Shown here one piece after another: positions 10,356-59,528 of a DNA stretch of 64,000 bases (the stretch's first letter is position 1; every line of letters begins with the position of its first letter). The notes beneath the pieces were generated by a model, which did not search any database, was not told where the DNA came from, and was given only the letters and a program-made list of their open reading frames with translations. Origin of the DNA: Vibrio sp. Isolate32 (GTDB lineage Bacteria > Pseudomonadota > Gammaproteobacteria > Enterobacterales > Vibrionaceae); assembly GCF_022397955.1 (NCBI RefSeq), contig NZ_JAKEUQ010000003.1, forward strand, positions 134,373-198,372, given 5' to 3'. The translations under genes and the position numbers were made by a program.

Positions 10356-11819
10356 ATGTCTTTACCTAGTTCAAACGCCTCTAACCTCAATCTAAACCCC
10401 TTGACTCAATATCAGGCGTTTTCGGTCCTGGTGGTCGATGATGAAATTGGTATGCAGGCAATTTTAAAGAAAGCACTATGTAAGTACTTTGGCAAGGTGT
10501 CGAGTGCCGGTTCTGTAGAAGAAGCAGAAACGCTACGTTGCAATGATCATTTCGATCTGATTGTTCTCGATATCAACCTTCCGGGCCGCTCTGGTATTGA
10601 GTGGGAAGAAGCCTTCAGTGATAGCGACCGAAAGGCAGACGTTATCTTTATGACTGGCTATGCCGATCTAGAGATGACCATATCAGCACTCAAGCTTGGT
10701 GCCTCAGATTTCATTTTAAAGCCATTTAACTTAGGACAGATGATACAAGCTGTACTGCGTTGTATGGATAAGCGCCTTGACCAAAGAATGCAGTACGCGT
10801 TGAAGCGTGATGTCAGCCGCCACATCAAAACTGAGATCATTGGTAACTCAGATAAGACCAAACAACTTAAACTGCTTATCAGCCAATTTGCACCATCACG
10901 AGCGTCAGTTTTGGTTGAAGGTGAGTCAGGTACCGGTAAAGAGTTGGTTGCACGTGGTGTTCATGAAGCCAGTAAACGAACTGGACCATTTGTACCAATC
11001 AACTGTGGTGCGATTGCTCCAGAGCTTCTCGAAAGTGAATTGTTTGGCCATACTTCTGGTGCCTTTACTGGTGCGAAGAAGAATCGTGAAGGTTTATTCA
11101 GAGTTGCTAATGGCGGTACGTTATTCCTCGATGAAATTGGCGAAATGCCACTGCCAATGCAAGCTGCATTACTGAGAGTGCTCGAGCAACGCACCATTCG
11201 TCCAGTTGGCAGTGAGAAAGAGATCTCTGTGGATGTACGCGTTGTCGCGGCAACCAATCGAAATCTACAAGAAGAAGTCGAGAAAGGACACTTCCGTCGT
11301 GATCTATTTTACCGTCTGAATGTACTCAAGATAGACGTGACTCCGTTGAGAGAACGACCATCGGATTTGATTGAGCTTGTTCCTTACTTCACACGCTTAT
11401 TATCAAGTGAACTTGGTATGCCTATTCCAAACTGGGCTCATGAGGATATCTTGGCGATGAATGAGTACGAGTGGCCTGGCAATATTCGTGAACTTAAGAA
11501 CTTAGTTGAACGCTGCATTCTGTTAGACAAGCCACCAGCTCACTATTGGCGAGAGATTAATGGTGACCCGGTACCTGCTAACATTTCAGTGACGGCGTCA
11601 CACGAAGCAGAAGTGCCTAACTTAAATAGCAATGGCACTGTTGAGGGGTATCCAAACACATGGACGCTTAAGGAAGTTGAGAAAGCACATATAGAACAAA
11701 TTGTTAGTTTCCGCGAGGGCAATAAGTCTGCAGCGGCAAGAGATCTTGGTGTTGCTCGTAAAACCTTAGAACGCAAATACAAAGACTGGAACACAGAAGG
11801 CTCTGAATATGCCGATTAG
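10356..11819 (+). CDS. Sigma-54-dependent response regulator
   Basis: An NtrC-type regulator of 487 residues. The receiver domain (about 20-140) has the phospho-acceptor Asp at residue 72 in FDLIVLDINLPG. The AAA+ domain (about 155-390) has Walker A GESGTGKE, the sigma-54-contacting loop GAFTGA and Walker B LFLDEIGEM. The C-terminus is a Fis-type helix-turn-helix, NKSAAARDLGVARKTLERK. The start at 10356 (MSLPSSNAS) is preferred; an in-frame TTG at 10290 would add 22 residues and overlap the palindromic site. It overlaps its kinase gene by 11 bases and diverges from tupA. It is the only sigma-54 activator in the window and therefore the likely user of the three -24/-12 promoters found here. 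Confidence 0.92.
   Translation: MSLPSSNASNLNLNPLTQYQAFSVLVVDDEIGMQAILKKALCKYFGKVSSAGSVEEAETLRCNDHFDLIVLDINLPGRSGIEWEEAFSDSDRKADVIFMTGYADLEMTISALKLGASDFILKPFNLGQMIQAVLRCMDKRLDQRMQYALKRDVSRHIKTEIIGNSDKTKQLKLLISQFAPSRASVLVEGESGTGKELVARGVHEASKRTGPFVPINCGAIAPELLESELFGHTSGAFTGAKKNREGLFRVANGGTLFLDEIGEMPLPMQAALLRVLEQRTIRPVGSEKEISVDVRVVAATNRNLQEEVEKGHFRRDLFYRLNVLKIDVTPLRERPSDLIELVPYFTRLLSSELGMPIPNWAHEDILAMNEYEWPGNIRELKNLVERCILLDKPPAHYWREINGDPVPANISVTASHEAEVPNLNSNGTVEGYPNTWTLKEVEKAHIEQIVSFREGNKSAAARDLGVARKTLERKYKDWNTEGSEYAD
11589..11601. other. matS site (MatP-binding) inside the response-regulator gene
   Basis: GTGACGGCGTCAC matches the consensus GTGACRNYGTCAC at every position. MatP binding to such sites organises the Ter macrodomain; matP is encoded in this window. 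Confidence 0.85.
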
Positions 11820-15834: not shown

Positions 15835-16736
15835 CTAGTTATCAAACTAAAGCTACGAGTGGCAGCCACTGAGATTTTAGGTGGGTTGATATTGTGTTTC
15901 TTAAACTCTTTCATGACACGAAGCGTAATGTCAGTCTCGAATAGTTTCTCATAGGCTGTATCGACCACATAAGCCTTACAGGTTAGCTGTATTGCTAGGT
16001 AGTTGTCGGTAATAGTCTGTTTCACAATACTATCACTGACTTAGGTAGGTGGATGTAACGGCTTGATGATGCCGTTTCCTGTATTAGATCACGGGCGAGG
16101 GTGATGTCCTCATCCATACCGACGTAAAACGGAATCACCACGTGCATAACCAACGCGCCATAGTTACCACTGGTGGTGACATCGTTTAAGAACTTGTTGT
16201 TAGGAATTGTGATGATGTCGTCTTTCAAAGTTCTGATACGTACCGAGCGTAAACCGATAGTAATAATGTCACCGTAGTTACCCTTGAGTGTGACACTGTC
16301 ACCTGTGTGAGGTGGTCTATCAATTATTACGGTGATGCTCGCGATGAAAGAGGCCGCCAAATCTTTTAAGGCAAAGCCAACCGACACCGCTAGGGTACCG
16401 CCAATCAGAGCCAAGATTAGGTCGTTGATGCGGAAACTCATCATGAACACGATAGAGCAGTGCTCACGTAAATAAAGAACTGCATGAACGATTGAAGCTT
16501 TTGCAACAGCATTCGATATTGAATGAACTGGCTATAGTTCGTCACCATTGAGTTAATGAGTTTCAATAATAACCACATCGCTGCAATGACGATAATAGAG
16601 AAGAACACGCCATTCCAGCGCACCAAACTCGCAATCTTAGCAATGTTTTCTACATTGGCTAATCTTCTGTCGCGTAAGTCGGGAAACTTACCGCCGTCGC
16701 TAAGCCAGCAAGTCATAGGATAAATAACTTCTTCAT
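15835..16736 (-). pseudogene. MscS-family mechanosensitive channel gene, multiply frameshifted
   Basis: Fragments in different frames add up to an MscS-type channel with a signal peptide: MKKLFIL at the start (ATG at 16736), LAGLATAVSFPTYA, membrane segments around WNGVFFSIIVIAAMWLLLKL, the pore-lining region MMSFRINDLILALIGGTLAV, GFALKDLAASF, and the beta domain with GDIITIGLRSVRIRTLKDD. Lesions: an in-frame TGA after FIL, a frameshift near 16683, another near 16445, another near 16025, and a two-base insertion near 15845 that hides the probable original stop at 15835. Each piece is well conserved, so decay looks recent. No functional channel can be made. Confidence 0.88.
16290..16302. other. 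matS site inside the mscS-type pseudogene
   Basis: GTGACACTGTCAC matches the MatP-binding consensus GTGACRNYGTCAC exactly. It survives although the host gene is dead. Confidence 0.85.
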
Positions 16737-35215: not shown

Positions 35216-36250
35216 TTATTGACCCGCTTTAAGCTTCATGAAGTAATCTTCGTACTTCACGGTCTTATCGCCGACTGCAGCTTGCCATTCAACACGATCA
35301 AGGTCTTCTTGAGACGGGAACAGAGCAGGGCTGTCTTTGAACTTCTCGTTAGACGCTTTCACTGCGGTTAGGTAACCAGTATCACGAGAGATTTGCTCAG
35401 CGATTTCAGGGCGAAGTAGGAAGTCGATCATCTTGTGAGCCGCTTCTACGTTTGTTGCACCAGAGCTGATTGCGAAGTTATCAACCCAACCGATACCGCC
35501 TTCTTTAGGGAATACCAGTTTAATTGGTAGACCTTCGTTTTGAGCCGCTGCTGCAGAGCCGTTCCAAAGCATACCAAGGCCAACTTCACCAGACATGTAT
35601 GGTGCGCCAGGGTTGTCTGAGTTAAATACTAGAACATTCGGCATTAGCTTTTGTAGCTCAGCGTAAGCTTCGTCGATCTCTTTCTCGTTAGTTGTGTTAC
35701 CTGAGTAACCTAACTTGCGTAGTGCAATGTGGAAAACTTCGCGAGTATCGTCCATCATCATCAGCTGACCTTCAAGCTCAGGCTTCCATAAGTCAGCCCA
35801 GCTTTGAAAATCTTCTGGATCGTACATGTCTGTGTTAACAGCCAAACCAGTAATAGCAACTACGTGTGGAATAGAGTAGTCGTTATTTGGGTCGTAAGGC
35901 TTATCTAGGTAGTTTGTATCTAGATTCTTAAAGTTGTTCAGCTTGGTTTTGTCGATCTTTTGAAGCATACCCTCATCACGCATCTTAGATACGAAGTAAG
36001 TCGACGGCACAACTAGGTCATAGCCTTTGTTGTGTGTTTTTAGCTTTGCGTACAGGGTTTCGTTCGACTCGTAAGTCGAGTAGATAACCTTGATACCAGT
36101 CTCATCAGTGAACTGTTCTAGAATCTCACTGTTGATGTAAGGTCCCCAGTTCATGAATACCAATTCTTTGTTATCTTTCGCAAAAGACGGTGCAGATAAC
36201 ATTGAAAGCGCACATGCACTACCAGCTAATAGAGTAGCCCATTTTTTCAT
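35216..36250 (-). CDS. potD2: Polyamine ABC transporter substrate-binding protein, PotD2 type
   Basis: Tandem paralogue of PotD1, 344 residues, with signal MKKWATLLAGSACALSMLSA and a PSFA cleavage region. GGAGC lies nine bases before the chosen ATG at 36250. Overall very similar to PotD1, but several pocket segments differ: NWGPYIN instead of NWSEYIP, and PHVVAITG instead of PYIWGATG. The DDTREVF and W-x-D (GWVDN) segments are kept. It may therefore have altered polyamine preference or weaker binding. Co-transcribed with potABC. Confidence 0.88.
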   Translation of the reverse strand: MKKWATLLAGSACALSMLSAPSFAKDNKELVFMNWGPYINSEILEQFTDETGIKVIYSTYESNETLYAKLKTHNKGYDLVVPSTYFVSKMRDEGMLQKIDKTKLNNFKNLDTNYLDKPYDPNNDYSIPHVVAITGLAVNTDMYDPEDFQSWADLWKPELEGQLMMMDDTREVFHIALRKLGYSGNTTNEKEIDEAYAELQKLMPNVLVFNSDNPGAPYMSGEVGLGMLWNGSAAAAQNEGLPIKLVFPKEGGIGWVDNFAISSGATNVEAAHKMIDFLLRPEIAEQISRDTGYLTAVKASNEKFKDSPALFPSQEDLDRVEWQAAVGDKTVKYEDYFMKLKAGQ

Positions 36251-46016: not shown

Positions 46017-48388
46017 TATTTACCTTGCTCTTTTAAAAGCCTTAACGAGTTAGACACAACAATAATAGAGCTTGCAGACATGCCAACAACGGCAATGTAT
46101 GGAGCAACCAAACCTGCTACAGCCAATGGAAGGATAAGTAGGTTGTATCCCAATGACCATGCTAGGTTTTCTCGGATTATCTTACGCGTTTTTAGCGCCA
46201 ATGTACGGGACTTAAGTAATCTATCAAGCTTGTCGCCCAATAAAACCATGTCTGCAGAGGCTTTTGCTACATCTGTACCGCCGCCCATCGCGACAGAAAG
46301 GTGAGCACCCGCAAGAATAGGCGCATCGTTAATACCGTCGCCAACCATCATGGTGATGTCTTTTTCATCACGAGAGTTAAGGTAAGCAAGCTTATCCTCT
46401 GGCTTAGCATTCGCAACGATGTCGGTAATACCAATTTCTTCAGCAACAGGCTTCGCGTTAATCAAGGAGTCACCAGTCAGCAGGGTAGTTTTAATGCCCG
46501 CTTCTTTGAACTTTTGGATGAACTCAGTGCTTTCTTTACGAATCGGGTCTTCATAAGTAAAGGTAGCAATATGACGTCCAGCCAACGATAAGTAGATACC
46601 GTTGCTTTGCGTCGGTTGAGCTTCACCAAGAATAAACTCACTACTACCGATCGCCACTTCTTGACCGTTCCACTCGCCAGTAATACCCGAACCAATAACG
46701 TTGTTTACGGAATTGACTTCAACATCATCGGACACGTTAGTTTTGAATGCTTTCGCAATAGGGTGGTTAGCATGCTGTTCTAGGCTCGCAGCCACTTTTA
46801 AACATGTCTCTTTATCAAGCTCTGAGAAAGTTTCCACTTGGCTAATACGAATATCACCCTCAGTCAACGTACCCGTCTTATCAATGATCAAGTGGTTAAC
46901 TTTGCATAAGGTTTCGAATACATGACCTTTACGCAGTAAAATACCAAAGTTACCCATACGGGACGTTGAACAAGTAATTGCTGTCGGTGTCGCCAGTGAA
47001 AGAGCACATGGACAAGTCGCAACCAGTACAGACAACATGATCCAGAATGCGTCTTCTGGTCGTGTTTGATGCCAGTAGAACCAAGTACCGAAGGAGATAA
47101 CTAAGATAACTGCAACAAAGTAACGAGCCACAATATCGGCAATCTCTGCAATACGAGGCTTAGATAACTGCGCTTCATCTTGCAGACGAACAATATTAGA
47201 GATCACAGAGTCCGCTTTTGATGTCATCACTTCCAGTTCAAATGACTCATCGCCATTCAATGTACCAGCGTAAACAGTATCGCCTTCGTTTTTCACAACA
47301 TGGATAGATTCGCCAGTCAGCATAGATTCATCAATATGAACTCGGCCAGAAAGTACTTTACCATCCGCAGGAATGTGTTCACCCGGAAGTACACGGATCT
47401 TGTCGCCTACTTTTAGGGTTTTCACTGGCACTTGCTCACCGTCTAGCGTTGTCGCCATAGCAGGGACGAGCTTAAGTAGGTTACCACTCGCAGCCGCTGC
47501 TTTACGACGTGCTCGCATCTCTAAGAAACGACCAAGTAGTAGGAAGAAGGTGAACATCGAGATAGATTCGAAGAAAACTTCTCCTTTCTCTGTCACGGTT
47601 GCCACCACACTTGCCACGTAGGCAAACAGCAGAGCGATCGAGACAGGTACATCCATACCCAATGTTCGACCTTTGAGGCTACGCCACGCATTGATATAGA
47701 AAGGCAATGCAGAGTAGAGCAGAACCGGTGTTGCAAAGATTAAGCTCACCCAACGGAAGTAGCTTTTGAATTCGGGCTCAAGGTTACCGAAGACTTCAAG
47801 ATACAACGCCACAGCCAGCATCATGACCTGCATGGTTGCTAAACCAGCAATACCAAGACGATAGAGATAATTCTTCATCGAACGATGATAGGCGGCTTCT
47901 TGTTGATCAGCCTCAAATGGTGCGGCTTTGTAGCCTAAGGTATGGATTGTAGACAACAGCTCGCTCAGTTTTGTCTGAGTGTTGTCCCAACTGAGCAGGG
48001 CGCGGTTAGTCGTGGTATTAACACGAATACTAACAACCCCTAACTTTGAAGAAACTTGCTTCTCAATAAGCCATGCACAAGCAGCACAAGAGATACCCTC
48101 TAGTGACAATGTCACTTCAGAGGTATTTTCAGAGTTACGGACGAACTCCAATTGAACATCTTCGTTGTCGTAATGACTGAGTGCCAGAAGTTGCTCTGGC
48201 ACGAGATCCGCTTTTTCAGCTGGGGCGGTACGATATTGGTAGTAAGAGACCAAACCGCTATCAACGATTGTCTGGGCTACGGTTTCGCAACCCGGACAAC
48301 ACATAGGTCGCACCGATCCTAAGATTTCTACTTTAAAATCCGTTTCCGCTGGTACATCTTCACCGCAGTGATAACAGGATTCACACAT
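46016..48388 (-). CDS. ccoI: Copper-exporting P-type ATPase CcoI
   Basis: A 790-residue P1B-type ATPase supplying copper for cbb3 oxidase maturation. The N-terminus has a Cys-rich zinc-ribbon-like segment (CESCYHCGE and CCPGC) and a heavy-metal domain with GISCAACAWL. The eight-span membrane part holds the CPC metal site in VATCPCALSLATPTA. The phosphorylated Asp is in IDKTGTLTEG, with TGDSLINAKPVA and MVGDGINDAPILAGAHLS further on. It is flanked closely by ccoH and ccoS. A perfect matS site lies within its coding sequence. Confidence 0.94.
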   Translation of the reverse strand: MCESCYHCGEDVPAETDFKVEILGSVRPMCCPGCETVAQTIVDSGLVSYYQYRTAPAEKADLVPEQLLALSHYDNEDVQLEFVRNSENTSEVTLSLEGISCAACAWLIEKQVSSKLGVVSIRVNTTTNRALLSWDNTQTKLSELLSTIHTLGYKAAPFEADQQEAAYHRSMKNYLYRLGIAGLATMQVMMLAVALYLEVFGNLEPEFKSYFRWVSLIFATPVLLYSALPFYINAWRSLKGRTLGMDVPVSIALLFAYVASVVATVTEKGEVFFESISMFTFFLLLGRFLEMRARRKAAAASGNLLKLVPAMATTLDGEQVPVKTLKVGDKIRVLPGEHIPADGKVLSGRVHIDESMLTGESIHVVKNEGDTVYAGTLNGDESFELEVMTSKADSVISNIVRLQDEAQLSKPRIAEIADIVARYFVAVILVISFGTWFYWHQTRPEDAFWIMLSVLVATCPCALSLATPTAITCSTSRMGNFGILLRKGHVFETLCKVNHLIIDKTGTLTEGDIRISQVETFSELDKETCLKVAASLEQHANHPIAKAFKTNVSDDVEVNSVNNVIGSGITGEWNGQEVAIGSSEFILGEAQPTQSNGIYLSLAGRHIATFTYEDPIRKESTEFIQKFKEAGIKTTLLTGDSLINAKPVAEEIGITDIVANAKPEDKLAYLNSRDEKDITMMVGDGINDAPILAGAHLSVAMGGGTDVAKASADMVLLGDKLDRLLKSRTLALKTRKIIRENLAWSLGYNLLILPLAVAGLVAPYIAVVGMSASSIIVVSNSLRLLKEQGK
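48104..48116. other. matS site inside ccoI
   Basis: GTGACAATGTCAC matches GTGACRNYGTCAC exactly. In the ccoI frame it lies within the codons for the conserved VTLSLEG stretch. Confidence 0.85.
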
Positions 48389-52937: not shown

Positions 52938-54122
52938 ATGAAATTTCTATCAAAAGTCTCTTACTCCCTAGACGATAAAATCGCAGTAGATGAGTTGCTC
53001 AGCGGGGTGGAAAACCCTGAGGATATTGCTTGTCTTATTTGCTACTGCACAGAAGAGTACTCAACACTCGCTGTGCAGAGATATTTCGTAGACGCTCTCC
53101 CTAACACTCCAATACATGGTTGTACTACTTGTCACGGCATTATGACCGAAACTGGGTTTCATTCAGGTCCGGTGATTGGCGTTCTCATCATTTATGACTC
53201 GGGGATCAATGCCTATGGTACGGGCATCGAGCACTTTGGCGACTCTATAGAACAAAGCACCTTCACCGCGATCGATAAAGCACTCAAGAACGCTAACCGA
53301 GAAGGTGAAATTCCTGATCTGATCTTGCTGCATTCCACTCCAGGTAATGAAGAGAAGGTGATGGCGGCTATCGACAAAAAGTTCGGTACTGAGGTTCCGA
53401 TTATTGGTGGCAGTGCTGCAGACAATCAGGTTTCTGGAAATTGGAGCATCTTTACCGAAGAGTCGCTCTCTATCAATGGTGTGTCTTTAACCGTCGTATT
53501 TGCATCCCAGTCTATCTATTCCTCATTCAGTGCAGGTCACACGCCAACGCGCTATTCAGGCACTGTGACCAAGGTAAGGAACCGAATCTTATTGGAGATA
53601 GACCACAGGCCAGCCGTCACGGTTTATAACGAATGGACTAATTTCCACTTGGGTGGCAGTGATGATGGCTACATATTTGAAAAGTCCTCTGTCTATCCAC
53701 TGGGCAGGAAAGTCGGCTCATCATACGACTATCCGTATTTCAAATTGTCTCATTCGATCAGAGAGACAGAGTGTAATGGAATTGAGCTATTCACCGACAT
53801 AAGTGAAGGCGACACCATCTATTTGATGCAAGGTTCTAAGCAGCAGTTGATAAGCCGTGCAGCTAATATCATCCATTCCTCGTACTACAACGACATGGAC
53901 CTTGAAGAGAAATTAGGAGCAATCAATATCTTTTGTGCAGGCCCAATGTTGAACCTCAAACAAGATATGGATGAGGTTTGTGACCAAACAAATCAAGCAC
54001 TTAATGGGCTTCCGTACATATGTCCGTTCACGTTTGGTGAGCAAGGCAGGCTATCTGGTGGTGAAAACGCACACGGGAATTTAATGGTATCGTCTGCAAC
54101 GTTTTATAGGTTGAAAAAGTAA
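52938..54122 (+). CDS. nosP: FIST-domain sensor protein, NosP type
   Basis: A 394-residue soluble protein with FIST N-terminal (about 25-210) and FIST C-terminal (about 220-370) domains; IHGCTTCHGIMTETGFH and GGSAADNQVSGNW fit FIST_N and GGENAHGNLMVSS the C-terminal part. FIST proteins of the NosP group bind haem and sense nitric oxide. In V. cholerae NosP is encoded beside VpsS, whose activity it modulates; the same pairing here (TAATG overlap with the kinase gene) supports the assignment. Haem binding itself cannot be proved from the sequence. Confidence 0.8.
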   Translation: MKFLSKVSYSLDDKIAVDELLSGVENPEDIACLICYCTEEYSTLAVQRYFVDALPNTPIHGCTTCHGIMTETGFHSGPVIGVLIIYDSGINAYGTGIEHFGDSIEQSTFTAIDKALKNANREGEIPDLILLHSTPGNEEKVMAAIDKKFGTEVPIIGGSAADNQVSGNWSIFTEESLSINGVSLTVVFASQSIYSSFSAGHTPTRYSGTVTKVRNRILLEIDHRPAVTVYNEWTNFHLGGSDDGYIFEKSSVYPLGRKVGSSYDYPYFKLSHSIRETECNGIELFTDISEGDTIYLMQGSKQQLISRAANIIHSSYYNDMDLEEKLGAINIFCAGPMLNLKQDMDEVCDQTNQALNGLPYICPFTFGEQGRLSGGENAHGNLMVSSATFYRLKK

Positions 54123-55846
54123 TGAGTTCTGAAGGTCAAGAAGCGCTGCAAGAAGCTCGTATTGAACTGCAAAAACTAAAAGCCCGTGAACGAAAACTGG
54201 CTGAAGAGAACAGGGTGATCTTATCAACCATCTCTGCGATCAGTAAGGCGAGTAACATATCTGAAATATTCTCCAGCCTTGAGTTTGTACTAAAAAAATA
54301 CATTAAATTTGATGATTTTATCGTGGTATCAAGGGTAGGGAACGAAGGCAGTTTCAAAACCCTGCTAACCAATAACAAAGTCTTCGAACAGATGAATTGG
54401 AGCGATTGTGGCAAGCTATCACGAGTCATCAATGGTGAATGCGCCATCTTTTTCGAACCCAAGTCTCTTGGAGAATTCAACTCTCTGCATCCCATTATTC
54501 TCGACCAAATCAACTCCGTTCTAATTACCGGTATCGATAGCGGGCTAACACAATCTGTAATCATCTTTATTCACTCCAATACCAAGCACTTTAGCATTGA
54601 AACCAAAGCCACGCTAAACCGCTTCCGCCCGTTGATAGAGCGTGCTGTCTTTGATATTGAAAACAAAGAAAAGCTTGAAGCTACAGTTCGAGAACGCACG
54701 GCAGAACTTGTCACAGCAAGAAAAGAGGCCGAAAGAGCAAATAAGGCAAAGTCGGAATTCCTCGCGATGATGAGTCATGAATTAAGAACGCCGCTAAACG
54801 CCATCATTGGCTTAATAGACACCCTAAAATCCACATCGCTGAACGAAGAACAACAGTCTATACTGCTTAATATGAGCACATCATCTGAGCTTCTATTGGC
54901 AATTATCAGTGACGTGTTGGATTTTTCTAAGATTGAATCTGGATGTTTCTCGTTAGCGCCTCAATGGAGCAACGTAAGAGACACTGTAACTTTTGTGTTA
55001 TCTGAACAAAAGAAGACAGCAGACGATAAAGGTTTGGCGCTAACCGTAACTAGCGATATCCCTGAGAGTGAACTTCATTATCTCGACCCAAGTCGTTTGG
55101 CTCAAATCCTATTTAATCTAATTGGTAACGCCATTAAGTTCACTGAACGTGGGCATGTTCATGTTTCTATAAAGTACCAGCAGAGCTCATTCTACATAAC
55201 AGTAGAAGACACAGGGATTGGCATTAGCTCACAACAACTTTCGTCGCTGTTCAGCCCATTCGTGCAAGCTGATAGTACTATCACACGCCGATTTGGCGGT
55301 ACAGGTTTAGGCTTGGCAATCAGCAAAAGACTAGTTGAGCTGATGCATGGGCGTATATCGGTAGAGAGTGAGCCAGGAAAAGGTTCTAAATTCGAAGTAC
55401 AGCTACCAGTGCTTACCAGAGTCACGAACAATCTGGCCAACATTGAAGATAATGAGTCTTCACGAGATTTAAGAAGCCGTTATTCAGTGTTAGTTGTCGA
55501 AGACAACCCAACGAATCAAATGGTGATCAAATTAATCCTAACGCGACAAGGCCACGAAGTTTTCATCGCAAGTAACGGCGAAGAAGCAATAGTCTTTATA
55601 CAAGACAACAAAGATTCCATAGACATTATCCTGATGGACGTTTCAATGCCGGTCATGGATGGTTTAACCACAACCAAACATATGAGAAAGGCAAACATCC
55701 AAACACCAATAGTGGCTCTAACGGCGCACACATCCGTTGAAGATAAATGTTCATGTTTAGATGTTGGTATGAATGATTTCGTTACCAAACCAGTAAGAAC
55801 AAAAGAAATAACAGAAGCTATAGATAGACTGATGCTTGAGATCTAA
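54122..55846 (+). CDS. vpsS: Hybrid sensor histidine kinase, VpsS-like
   Basis: A cytoplasmic 574-residue hybrid kinase. A coiled-coil start (about 3-35) and a GAF-like region (about 40-180) come before the dimerisation domain with His219 in MMSHELRTPLNAIIG. The ATPase domain has NLIGNAIKFTERGH, EDTGIGI and FGGTGLGLAIS. The receiver (about 455-570) has Asp506 in IILMDVSMPVMDG. There is no membrane span, so the input is probably the co-translated NosP protein. In V. cholerae VpsS feeds phosphate to LuxU in the quorum-sensing and biofilm pathway; a similar output is inferred here. Confidence 0.82.
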   Translation: MSSEGQEALQEARIELQKLKARERKLAEENRVILSTISAISKASNISEIFSSLEFVLKKYIKFDDFIVVSRVGNEGSFKTLLTNNKVFEQMNWSDCGKLSRVINGECAIFFEPKSLGEFNSLHPIILDQINSVLITGIDSGLTQSVIIFIHSNTKHFSIETKATLNRFRPLIERAVFDIENKEKLEATVRERTAELVTARKEAERANKAKSEFLAMMSHELRTPLNAIIGLIDTLKSTSLNEEQQSILLNMSTSSELLLAIISDVLDFSKIESGCFSLAPQWSNVRDTVTFVLSEQKKTADDKGLALTVTSDIPESELHYLDPSRLAQILFNLIGNAIKFTERGHVHVSIKYQQSSFYITVEDTGIGISSQQLSSLFSPFVQADSTITRRFGGTGLGLAISKRLVELMHGRISVESEPGKGSKFEVQLPVLTRVTNNLANIEDNESSRDLRSRYSVLVVEDNPTNQMVIKLILTRQGHEVFIASNGEEAIVFIQDNKDSIDIILMDVSMPVMDGLTTTKHMRKANIQTPIVALTAHTSVEDKCSCLDVGMNDFVTKPVRTKEITEAIDRLMLEI

Positions 55847-56261
55847 TAAACGTATTCTTAATCGAAGATTAGGAAATATGTTTATTAGGTATTTTATGGT
55901 AAATAACCATTATGGTTAAATACACAGTATCAGTTGAGAAGAAACGAAGGCAGGGCATCAGATATCGAGCACTGCCTTATGATTATTAAATATAATTTAA
56001 CATAATATACATAATGCGCAGTATCTATGTGTGAAATCTGAGAGCTCCCTGATATATTTTACGTACAGAACCACTATTGACCACTTTTGGATTTGGCAAA
56101 ATAAACCACCTAAACAGGCTACTATTTCGTGTTTAAATTTTGATCTATCAAATAGTTATAATTAAAAATAAGGTGATTAAGCAATCAAATGCTGTGCATT
56201 TGGAGTTGCATTACCAATTAAAGTGTTAACATCAGAAAATGTTGTAAACTAGGTGTTTTAT
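55847..56261. other. Gene-free terminus region
   Basis: About 415 AT-rich bases without a gene. They hold the dif site (55995-56022) and, just before it, an inverted repeat (AAGGCAG/CTGCCTT, 55947-55978) that may end the vpsS transcript. Nothing else is recognised. Confidence 0.6.
55995..56022 (-). other. dif: dif chromosome dimer resolution site
   Basis: A 28-bp sequence in the standard XerC-6-XerD arrangement. On the plus strand the left 11 bases ATTTAACATAA are the XerD half, then TATACA, then the XerC half TAATGCGCAGT (56012-56022). From memory it differs from the E. coli site and the V. cholerae chromosome 1 site by only a few bases, mostly in the XerC half and centre. XerCD, activated by FtsK, resolves chromosome dimers here. 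It therefore marks the replication terminus of this chromosome. Confidence 0.92.
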
Positions 56262-56864
56262 ATGTTGCCTAAACTTTATAAGTTCAGATCGCTCCACGAT
56301 AGAAACATACAATCTATATCCGAGTGTTCGTTGTGGTTTGATTACGCTAAATCCTTTAATAACCCTTTTGATTCTAACCATATCTTCAGCCAATGCCTTC
56401 AAAATGATTTTAAGGTTATGTGTTTCTCACAGTCCAGCGACCACCCAATACTGTGGTCTCAGTATGGTGATAACTTCAAAGGTATGTGTATTGAGTATGA
56501 CCTTAACTGTTATGAGGGTGACGCAAACCTAAACTGCTTCGAGGTTCAATATGAAGACCATCCAAACGATATCTGTTTGCCCTTGTTAGATAATTTACCG
56601 CCATTACGCTTAGGTACCGAGCTCTTTAAGGTAAAGCACTCCAATTGGCGCTATGAACGAGAATATCGCTGGGTACTACCTAATGAAGAGCTTAAAGGCA
56701 ATAAATTGTTTCTTAACAAGCAGTGCCTGACTTCAGTCATTCTCTCAGAGCACGCTCCGGCGGATAGAAAGCTTAAACTGTTAATGACATGCCAACGCTT
56801 AGGTATTCCTGTCAAACAAGCGGTAGCCAAACAGGACTCATTCACCTTTGAAGTCGTTTGCTGA
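56262..56864 (+). CDS. DUF2971 family protein
   Basis: A 200-residue soluble protein of the DUF2971 type: YKFRSLHDRNIQSI near the start, LWFDYAKSFNNPFDSN, then HPILWSQYGDNFKGMCIEYD and HSNWRYEREYRWVLP, the usual conserved blocks. The family is patchily distributed and its function unknown; members often lie in accessory or mobile DNA. ATG 56262 with AGGTG upstream was chosen over GTG 56253. It stands alone, about 240 bases from dif, a known landing zone for integrating elements, so recent acquisition is possible. Confidence 0.8.
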   Translation: MLPKLYKFRSLHDRNIQSISECSLWFDYAKSFNNPFDSNHIFSQCLQNDFKVMCFSQSSDHPILWSQYGDNFKGMCIEYDLNCYEGDANLNCFEVQYEDHPNDICLPLLDNLPPLRLGTELFKVKHSNWRYEREYRWVLPNEELKGNKLFLNKQCLTSVILSEHAPADRKLKLLMTCQRLGIPVKQAVAKQDSFTFEVVC

Positions 56865-59072: not shown

Positions 59073-59528
59073 TTACTTATCGTCAGAAAGAAGCTTGCTC
59101 AAATCTTCTTTAAGGCTTGTTACCGTCTTACTCGCCTGTTCACTGCGAGATGCTTCACTTACCAGGTATTCGATGGCGTCAGACAAGGTGCACCCCAACT
59201 CATTCGCTCTTTGAGATAACTTTTCCCACACGCGGTAATCGAGGTCGATTGATTTCTTTTTTGTGTGAACCTGCTCAGCGTTAAAATGGCGTTTTCGCTT
59301 CGCTCTGATCGCTTGTTTAAGCTTATTATCGAGCTCTGGAGACATGTTGTCTGAGATCCATTCAAGTACGCCAGTTGGTTGATGCTCAAGCTTTAAGAGC
59401 GCTTGTATTGCGACCTCAGCTTCACTTGAATCAATATGGCAAGTGATCGATTCGCCTTCTTTCCATTTTTTGACCAGATAGTTCCATTTCCAACCACATT
59501 CTAAGTTTTCAAGTTGCTGATATTTCAT
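59073..59528 (-). CDS. matP: Macrodomain Ter protein MatP
   Basis: MatP binds matS sites and compacts the terminus region, delaying its segregation. The 151-residue protein has the N-terminal four-helix part MKYQQLENLECGWKWNYLVKK and a ribbon-helix-helix segment KKSIDLDYRVWEKLSQRA, followed by LSDAIEYLVSE and a coiled C-terminus for tetramer formation. It is divergent from lonH, as in E. coli. A one-mismatch matS sequence lies 25 bases upstream of its start, which suggests possible autoregulation. Confidence 0.95.
   Translation of the reverse strand: MKYQQLENLECGWKWNYLVKKWKEGESITCHIDSSEAEVAIQALLKLEHQPTGVLEWISDNMSPELDNKLKQAIRAKRKRHFNAEQVHTKKKSIDLDYRVWEKLSQRANELGCTLSDAIEYLVSEASRSEQASKTVTSLKEDLSKLLSDDK

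Follow-up and report, generated by a model that had tools for sequence, protein, structure and literature searches.

Chromosomal dif sites are usually taken to be self-sufficient, with FtsK as their activator, and the locus described here raises the question whether the site at which Vibrio chromosomes are separated consists of more than its own 28 bp. Our data suggest that this separation site has an unrecognised helper sequence. The window, i.e. the whole stretch of 64,000 nucleotides that was analysed, is C23:134373-198372 in the draft genome of Vibrio sp. Isolate32 (4,741,850 bp, 92 contigs), and contig C23 has 351,642 bp. An earlier note on this DNA had placed a full-length XerC/XerD site with a six-base centre, read as the dif of chromosome 1, in a short gap between a kinase gene and a DUF2971 gene. 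A search with a 26-base Vibrio dif pattern (up to three mismatches) recovered it as an exact 11-6-11 match on the minus strand, in a gap of 406 bp from the stop of the hybrid kinase gene (55846) to the DUF2971 ORF (56253). The site and its neighbours are:

52938..54122, plus strand: FIST-domain sensor (NosP-like), with FIST domains
54122..55846, plus strand: hybrid histidine kinase (VpsS-like), with generic hybrid kinase domains, abutting the module described below on the XerD-arm side
55995..56022, minus strand: dif1, with XerC arm ACTGCGCATTA, centre TGTATA and XerD arm TTATGTTAAAT, the XerD arm at the low-coordinate side
56075..56096, no strand: breakpoint found by comparison with the nearest relative, L075, which has ~1.37 kb more there
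56253..56864, plus strand: DUF2971 protein, on the XerC-arm side (27 bits, cut-off 22)

In the window the site is the one match, with 0 mismatches, and shuffled windows gave 0 matches in 100. No better dif was found elsewhere on the replicon, as the site, exact to the Vibrio pattern, is also the sole match at up to three mismatches across the whole draft. We counted two mismatches to V. cholerae dif1 and three to the E. coli dif. The V. cholerae dif1 in the table of PMC3089051 has one base unlike the version used for this count. A second dif, ACTGCGTATTA-TCATTG-TTATGTTAAAT, lies on contig C89, the putative chromosome 2. Its centre differs from the TGTATA of dif1, following the rule that the dif centres of two chromosomes stay different (PMC2533119, accessible part), and a centre common to both dif sites of one genome was found in 0/37 genomes. 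Outside these 37, one 80% complete draft has two TGTATA centres (G168, contigs C171 and C58), possibly through contamination, since the draft is only 80% complete. Two single contigs, G098:C1 (3.24 Mb) and G154:C1 (4.07 Mb), each carry two dif-like sites with different centres and are possible natural chromosome fusions or misassemblies. Two reduced Vibrio genomes of 1.0-1.1 Mb, rated 99% complete (G012, G025), had no dif at two mismatches; at three mismatches G025 had one and G012 none.

The earlier note proposed that KOPS polarity should switch and GC skew invert at this site. KOPS polarity does switch: on the 351,642-bp contig GGGNAGGG occurs seven times in forward orientation, always left of dif1, and three times in reverse, always right of it, so that 10/10 point at dif1 (the relaxed patterns GGGNANGG and GGNNAGGG were noisier than GGGNAGGG). 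The skew changes sign across dif1, from +0.045 on its left to -0.063 on its right. The cumulative curve, however, peaks at window position 36083, 20 kb to the left; thus the skew inverts around dif1, not exactly there. Between window positions 36000 and 56000 the skew is mostly negative already, and many minus-strand genes lie there. With GTGACRNYGTCAC as the matS pattern, 11 sites were found genome-wide, four of them on the dif1 contig and three of those in the window. The terminus markers of the window are:

11589..11601, no strand: matS, pattern match (C23:145961)
16290..16302, no strand: matS, pattern match (C23:150662)
48103..48115, no strand: matS, pattern match, 8 kb from dif1 (C23:182475)
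54333..54340, plus strand: nearest KOPS GGGNAGGG, directed towards dif1
59073..59528, minus strand: matP, 3 kb from dif1 (NF003471, 237.8 bits, cut-off 165)

A single site with an 11-6-11 consensus match, a KOPS polarity switch (KOPS being scanned on C23 alone) and a skew of opposite signs left and right has the properties of gamma-proteobacterial dif. Because of its uniqueness, the KOPS polarity, the sign of the skew, the matS sites, the nearby matP and the distinct dif2 on C89, we assign the site to dif1; the sequence supports a full dif1 at 55995-56022, which taken alone is an ordinary finding. The earlier claim that the site fixes the replication terminus went too far, as the skew peaks 20 kb away and in V. 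cholerae, according to the accessible part of PMC6549158, the forks meet about 45 kb from dif1 and there is no fork trap. Hence dif1 marks the terminus rather than fixes it.

Relatives were compared by 20-kb stretches around one dif each from 80 genomes, picked for contig size and, mostly, a TGTATA-like centre; 64 of the 80 loci carry chromosome-1 markers, and the remaining 16 include dif2 loci because TGTATA sits on the smaller chromosome in some genomes. The closest named relatives, judged by the kinase, are V. splendidus-group genomes, and the nearest relative is L075. In 45 loci matP stands on the XerC-arm side of dif, at 0.6 to 9.0 kb, and in L105 on the opposite side; in the remaining chromosome-1 loci of the 64 it was not found within the 20-kb stretch. 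In three splendidus-group assemblies (L132, L133 and L136) the contigs break 8-17 bases past the 26-base dif1 match, as if dif1 were repeated in those genomes.

NosP and VpsS genes had been placed directly beside dif1. A FIST sensor and a hybrid kinase do adjoin it, but their names are provisional, assigned by position, and the NCBIfam NosP model scored 64 bits on the FIST sensor (cut-off 450). The kinase is present in 43 of the 80 dif loci, and in 38 it is the direct neighbour of dif on the XerD-arm side, with its centre ~1 kb away. As a landmark, the gap is short but not static: ~1.37 kb of the nearest relative is missing here, which is why dif1 and DUF2971 lie so close, and in L075 this DNA holds a broken outer-membrane-barrel-like gene (barrel judged by eye) that is intact in other relatives. 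A dif-like remnant in the dif-DUF2971 gap was not found below 11 mismatches in the window; the best in relatives had eight. The dif1 spot is variable among relatives, in agreement with dif of both Vibrio chromosomes as a prophage hotspot, several filamentous or tailless prophages carrying a dif-like motif (PMC11630473, accessible part). In L084, L063 and L111 the DNA that separates dif1 from the barrel gene or from DUF2971 contains transposase-like, reverse-transcriptase-like and antitoxin-like ORFs (by eye). Here the site stands without phage or island, as the earlier note had it, with no Zot-family gene in the genome (such genes are present in 24/64 genomes searched) and no island recombinase at E <= 1e-30.

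That note missed an inverted partner site 90 bp away, which we call P. The features on the XerD-arm side are:

55860..55870, no strand: short palindrome AATCGAAGATT upstream of P (by eye; similar words recur in Vibrio loci)
55879..55904, plus strand: P, inverted degenerate dif-like site TGTTTATTA-GGTATT-TTATGGTAAAT, on the XerD-arm side of dif1, 116 bp start to start and 90 bp between
55910..55921, plus strand: D2, second XerD-like arm TTATGGTTAAAT, with a 1-base insertion relative to TTATGTTAAAT
55947..55978, no strand: imperfect hairpin AAGGCAGGGC...GCACTGCCTT in the P-dif spacer (sequence inspection)

The XerD-like arm of P matches at 10/11 bases and its XerC arm is degenerate. TATTTTATGGTAAAT in P is nearly invariant across loci whereas the P-dif spacer diverges, and the bases of P unlike dif are themselves conserved. 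This genome has exactly two P modules, at dif1 and dif2. With up to eight mismatches, an inverted P was found in 65 of 81 dif loci (the 80 relatives and the window), in every case at -89 to -127 on the XerD-arm side, with a gap of 63-101 bp between P and dif; the chance level at this threshold was 18 of 3473 random 400-bp segments. On the XerC side, 0/80 loci had an inverted P-like site within 400 bp, and same-strand dif-like sites stood beside dif in one (left) and one (right) of the 80. P is present in all 38 kinase-abutting loci and in seven chromosome-1 loci lacking the kinase. When 22 Vibrionaceae loci were found by the kinase, 19 had a dif-like site (up to eight mismatches) near the kinase stop; in two of these, L141 and L152, dif itself was not found. 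Another of the 19, L138 (Vibrionales bacterium SWAT-3), keeps the 116-bp spacing but has the P-dif pair in the opposite orientation with respect to the kinase.

Pairing was tested on 148 of the 150 listed P rows, which cover genomes up to G094, two G067 rows being dropped as they had no listed dif. Among the matches listed, 115/148 P lay within 300 bp of a listed dif, and in 115/115 of these pairs P was on the strand opposite to dif and on its XerD side. Counted by dif, P stood within 300 bp of 115 of the 150 listed sites and was missing from that range at 35. Of the 33 unpaired P rows, 25 were read: 15 stand beside a dif missed earlier, seven are second P copies, two are island-internal, and for one no dif was found in the 2 kb fetched. 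In 55 further loci, mostly dif2, 53 have P with a dif arm within 190 bp (in L267 the XerC arm of this dif is broken) and P was not found near dif in G052 and G057, a figure that is no independent count since the loci were mostly chosen at P matches. D2 recurs as well: the best arm had up to three mismatches in 185/190 modules (taken from 218 locus ids, some repeating one place), and a control window gave 4/190 at three and none lower.

Moreover, the spacing is phased. Start-to-start distances peak near 94-96, 104-106, 115-116 and 124-127 bp, with R 0.68 at 10.5 bp for 115 pairs. The 190 modules fall into 97 spacer clusters at 75% identity, and the 93 clusters under 150 bp still give R 0.43-0.44 at 10.0-10.5 bp, a value reached by 0/5000 draws from a smooth null, in a test that is weakened because spacer clusters may share length by descent. 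Spacings of 132-190 bp also exist. The hairpin of the P-dif spacer is not a general feature: across the 97 clusters the median z was -0.19, with 25% at z < -1.5, so that a general hairpin was not supported.

P was found in 180 of 227 Vibrio genomes, with none in 47, one in 12 and two or more in 168 (a reversed control pattern gave three matches), and in 248/296 genomes from 12/13 Vibrionaceae genera when the family was scanned (13 control matches). Beyond the family, 30 dif loci from seven other families had no inverted partner, one P-like match facing the other way, and a gapped P pattern, in a test that also demands an exact XerD arm, gave 0/368 in other gammaproteobacterial genomes. Of 52 viral contigs with P, 50 have a dif at 86-190 bp from it, in the same arrangement as on chromosomes. 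Third P+dif modules lie on contigs of 64-332 kb in G047, G052, G053 and G085, which are taken to be putative large plasmids. Absence of P follows descent. On a tree of three neighbouring proteins with 44 rows (chromosome-1 loci only, some long branches), the 13 P-less rows need three changes, against 11.3-11.5 in shuffles; they form three clades, and all 13 come from genomes without P anywhere. P-less genomes contributed 20 dif loci, of which 11 lie on chromosome-2-size contigs; matches at these loci did not exceed the chance level, and no degenerate P was found. P is thus dispensable, since 47/227 genomes lack it and it is missing within 300 bp of 35/150 listed dif sites, and its joint loss at both dif sites would fit a trans-acting binder.

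We propose, with a probability of roughly 55% and judging from the sequence, that P and D2 belong to the Vibrionaceae dif as an accessory element, which XerD would probably bind and which would act in cis and in phase. In V. cholerae, XerC/XerD activated by FtsK along KOPS resolve chromosome 1 dimers at dif1. From its sequence and context, the 28-mer here would work likewise, FtsK arriving along KOPS and activating XerC/XerD on it to resolve chromosome 1 dimers. P would be an inverted, probably recombination-incompetent dif-like site, to which D2 adds a further XerD-like arm. XerD may occupy both P and D2, with XerC bound weakly or not at all in view of the degenerate XerC arm of P. A short DNA loop would then bring the complex on P into contact, in cis, with the XerCD on dif, and one rotational setting of this loop would be favoured. 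The P complex would likely serve in loading XerCD onto dif or keeping it there, or else in holding recombination back before FtsK reaches the site, in the same way on every replicon of the cell.

The main rival to this accessory-element reading derives P from a family of dif-targeting islands with three recombinase-like genes, as their end or as the site they recognise. Such islands would enter the XerD arm, bring P and a spacer with them and leave these behind when lost. We consider this unlikely. Several genomes carry a further P 16-30 kb away from dif, and the DNA in between is an island, in the order old P, old spacer, ATTTAAC junction, cargo, recombinase-like genes, dif (the junction was present in 7/7 read; the G046 island has only the first recombinase-like gene, beside IS-like genes). 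Five of eight islands read (G015, G024, G044, G046 and G309) have a P and a spacer of their own beside dif, as the rival expects, and since islands carry P, part of the spread of P may be their own. But the other three have no P between the recombinase genes and dif, two of them in P-bearing genomes (G052, G057) and one in a P-less genome (G186). Moreover, one island recombinase-like protein was found in only 11/227 Vibrio genomes at E <= 1e-30, against 180 with P; eight of the 11 have it within 4.5 kb of a listed dif, and two more, G015 and G186, within ~4 kb of a dif found later. P is also nearly invariant at island-free loci and follows the neighbouring-protein tree. The G044 island has four genes, of 478, 514, 830 and 155 aa; Phage_integrase matches were found for the first two only (8.7e-6 and 0.006), both under the cut-off. 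For comparison, the gene order of GInts is ginA, ginB, ginC, ginD.

Exchange of spacers between chromosomes also favours this rival. Here the dif1 and dif2 spacers are 97% identical, and the best same-chromosome identities are 86% and 72% among 36 other genomes; in 8/37 genomes the within-genome identity of the two spacers beats both same-chromosome bests. With spacers swapped in 8/37 genomes and shared centres in 0/37, spacer DNA moves between chromosomes and the centres stay apart. A spacer type of 188-190 bp that contains repeated CTTATGAACCTAAC-like words is shared by different species and also stands at the ends of islands; it was seen at the dif2 of G033:C1 and of G112:C2 (L324, L344) and in the G015 and G309 islands.

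A third account, rather improbable in our view, holds that P is the site of another, Vibrionaceae-specific protein that requires its site next to each dif and that some clades have lost, the dif likeness of P stemming from an ancestral duplication. It would explain why P is mostly present or absent genome-wide and not per dif (none in 47 genomes, one in 12, two or more in 168), and why P is conserved even where its bases depart from those of dif. The match of 10/11 bases in the XerD-like arm of P and the XerD-like sequence of D2 argue instead for XerD.

The pair also shares the geometry of attP1/attP2 in CTX-type phages, two inverted dif-like sites ~90 bp apart (PMC3089051, PMC4246890, accessible parts of both) that fold together in single-stranded DNA, yet we regard an attP-like module as very improbable. 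The phage sites keep the XerC arm and have a degenerate XerD arm in the partner, and in P, which is host chromosomal, the opposite arm is degenerate. Zot matches lay within 30 kb of a listed dif in 34/39 cases, 34/34 of them on the XerC side, opposite to P. Single-strand pairing of P with dif was not supported: the centre of P is not complementary and stays the same as dif centres change, so pairing is not kept. Finally, that the site is an ordinary dif1 only, with P a terminator of the kinase gene (by eye, P coincides in part with a short inverted repeat that follows the kinase stop) or a chance match, is hardly credible, since P also stands beside dif2, on smaller contigs and in seven kinase-less chromosome-1 loci, and does not decay where the kinase is missing.

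Returning to P as an accessory element, we put at about even odds the wider statement that the working Vibrionaceae dif is a two-part module, i.e. dif with an inverted, XerD-biased partner in rotational phase, common to both chromosomes and some large plasmids, which islands using dif often restore, and whose spacer passes between chromosomes as selection keeps the centres apart. A partner present at the dif of both chromosomes in the majority of the family's sampled genomes, and absent by clade, offers a direct test for an extra layer of control over Xer timing. P may also help to explain why dif stays intact despite the phages and islands that accumulate around it.

Several known systems resemble parts of this arrangement. 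The islands are alike to GInts and SEs by described content, with recombinase-like genes plus a small gene, cargo and a specific target; the accessible portions of the GInt and SE accounts do not mention dif as that target (PMC5385486, PMC10214605). Several prophages at Vibrio dif carry a dif-like motif, and P is not described in the available part of PMC11630473; nor did we find an earlier description of P in the openly accessible literature, in the parts that could be seen. Vibrio dif1/dif2 with FtsK-activated XerCD, as available from Val et al. 2008 (PMC2533119), agree with our locus in the 28-bp 11-6-11 site, the TGTATA centre, the distinct centre of dif2 and the KOPS polarity. Whereas that account, in the part available, describes the DNA next to Vibrio dif as free of conserved motifs, our locus has an inverted partner that is conserved at both dif1 and dif2. 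A parallel in layout is plasmid cer, in which, as in the module described here, a core Xer site is joined to conserved adjoining DNA with a possible cis complex. According to the accessible part of PMC5357621, cer uses ~180 bp of accessory DNA with PepA and ArgR, whereas the accessory DNA in Vibrio is chromosomal and is itself dif-like.
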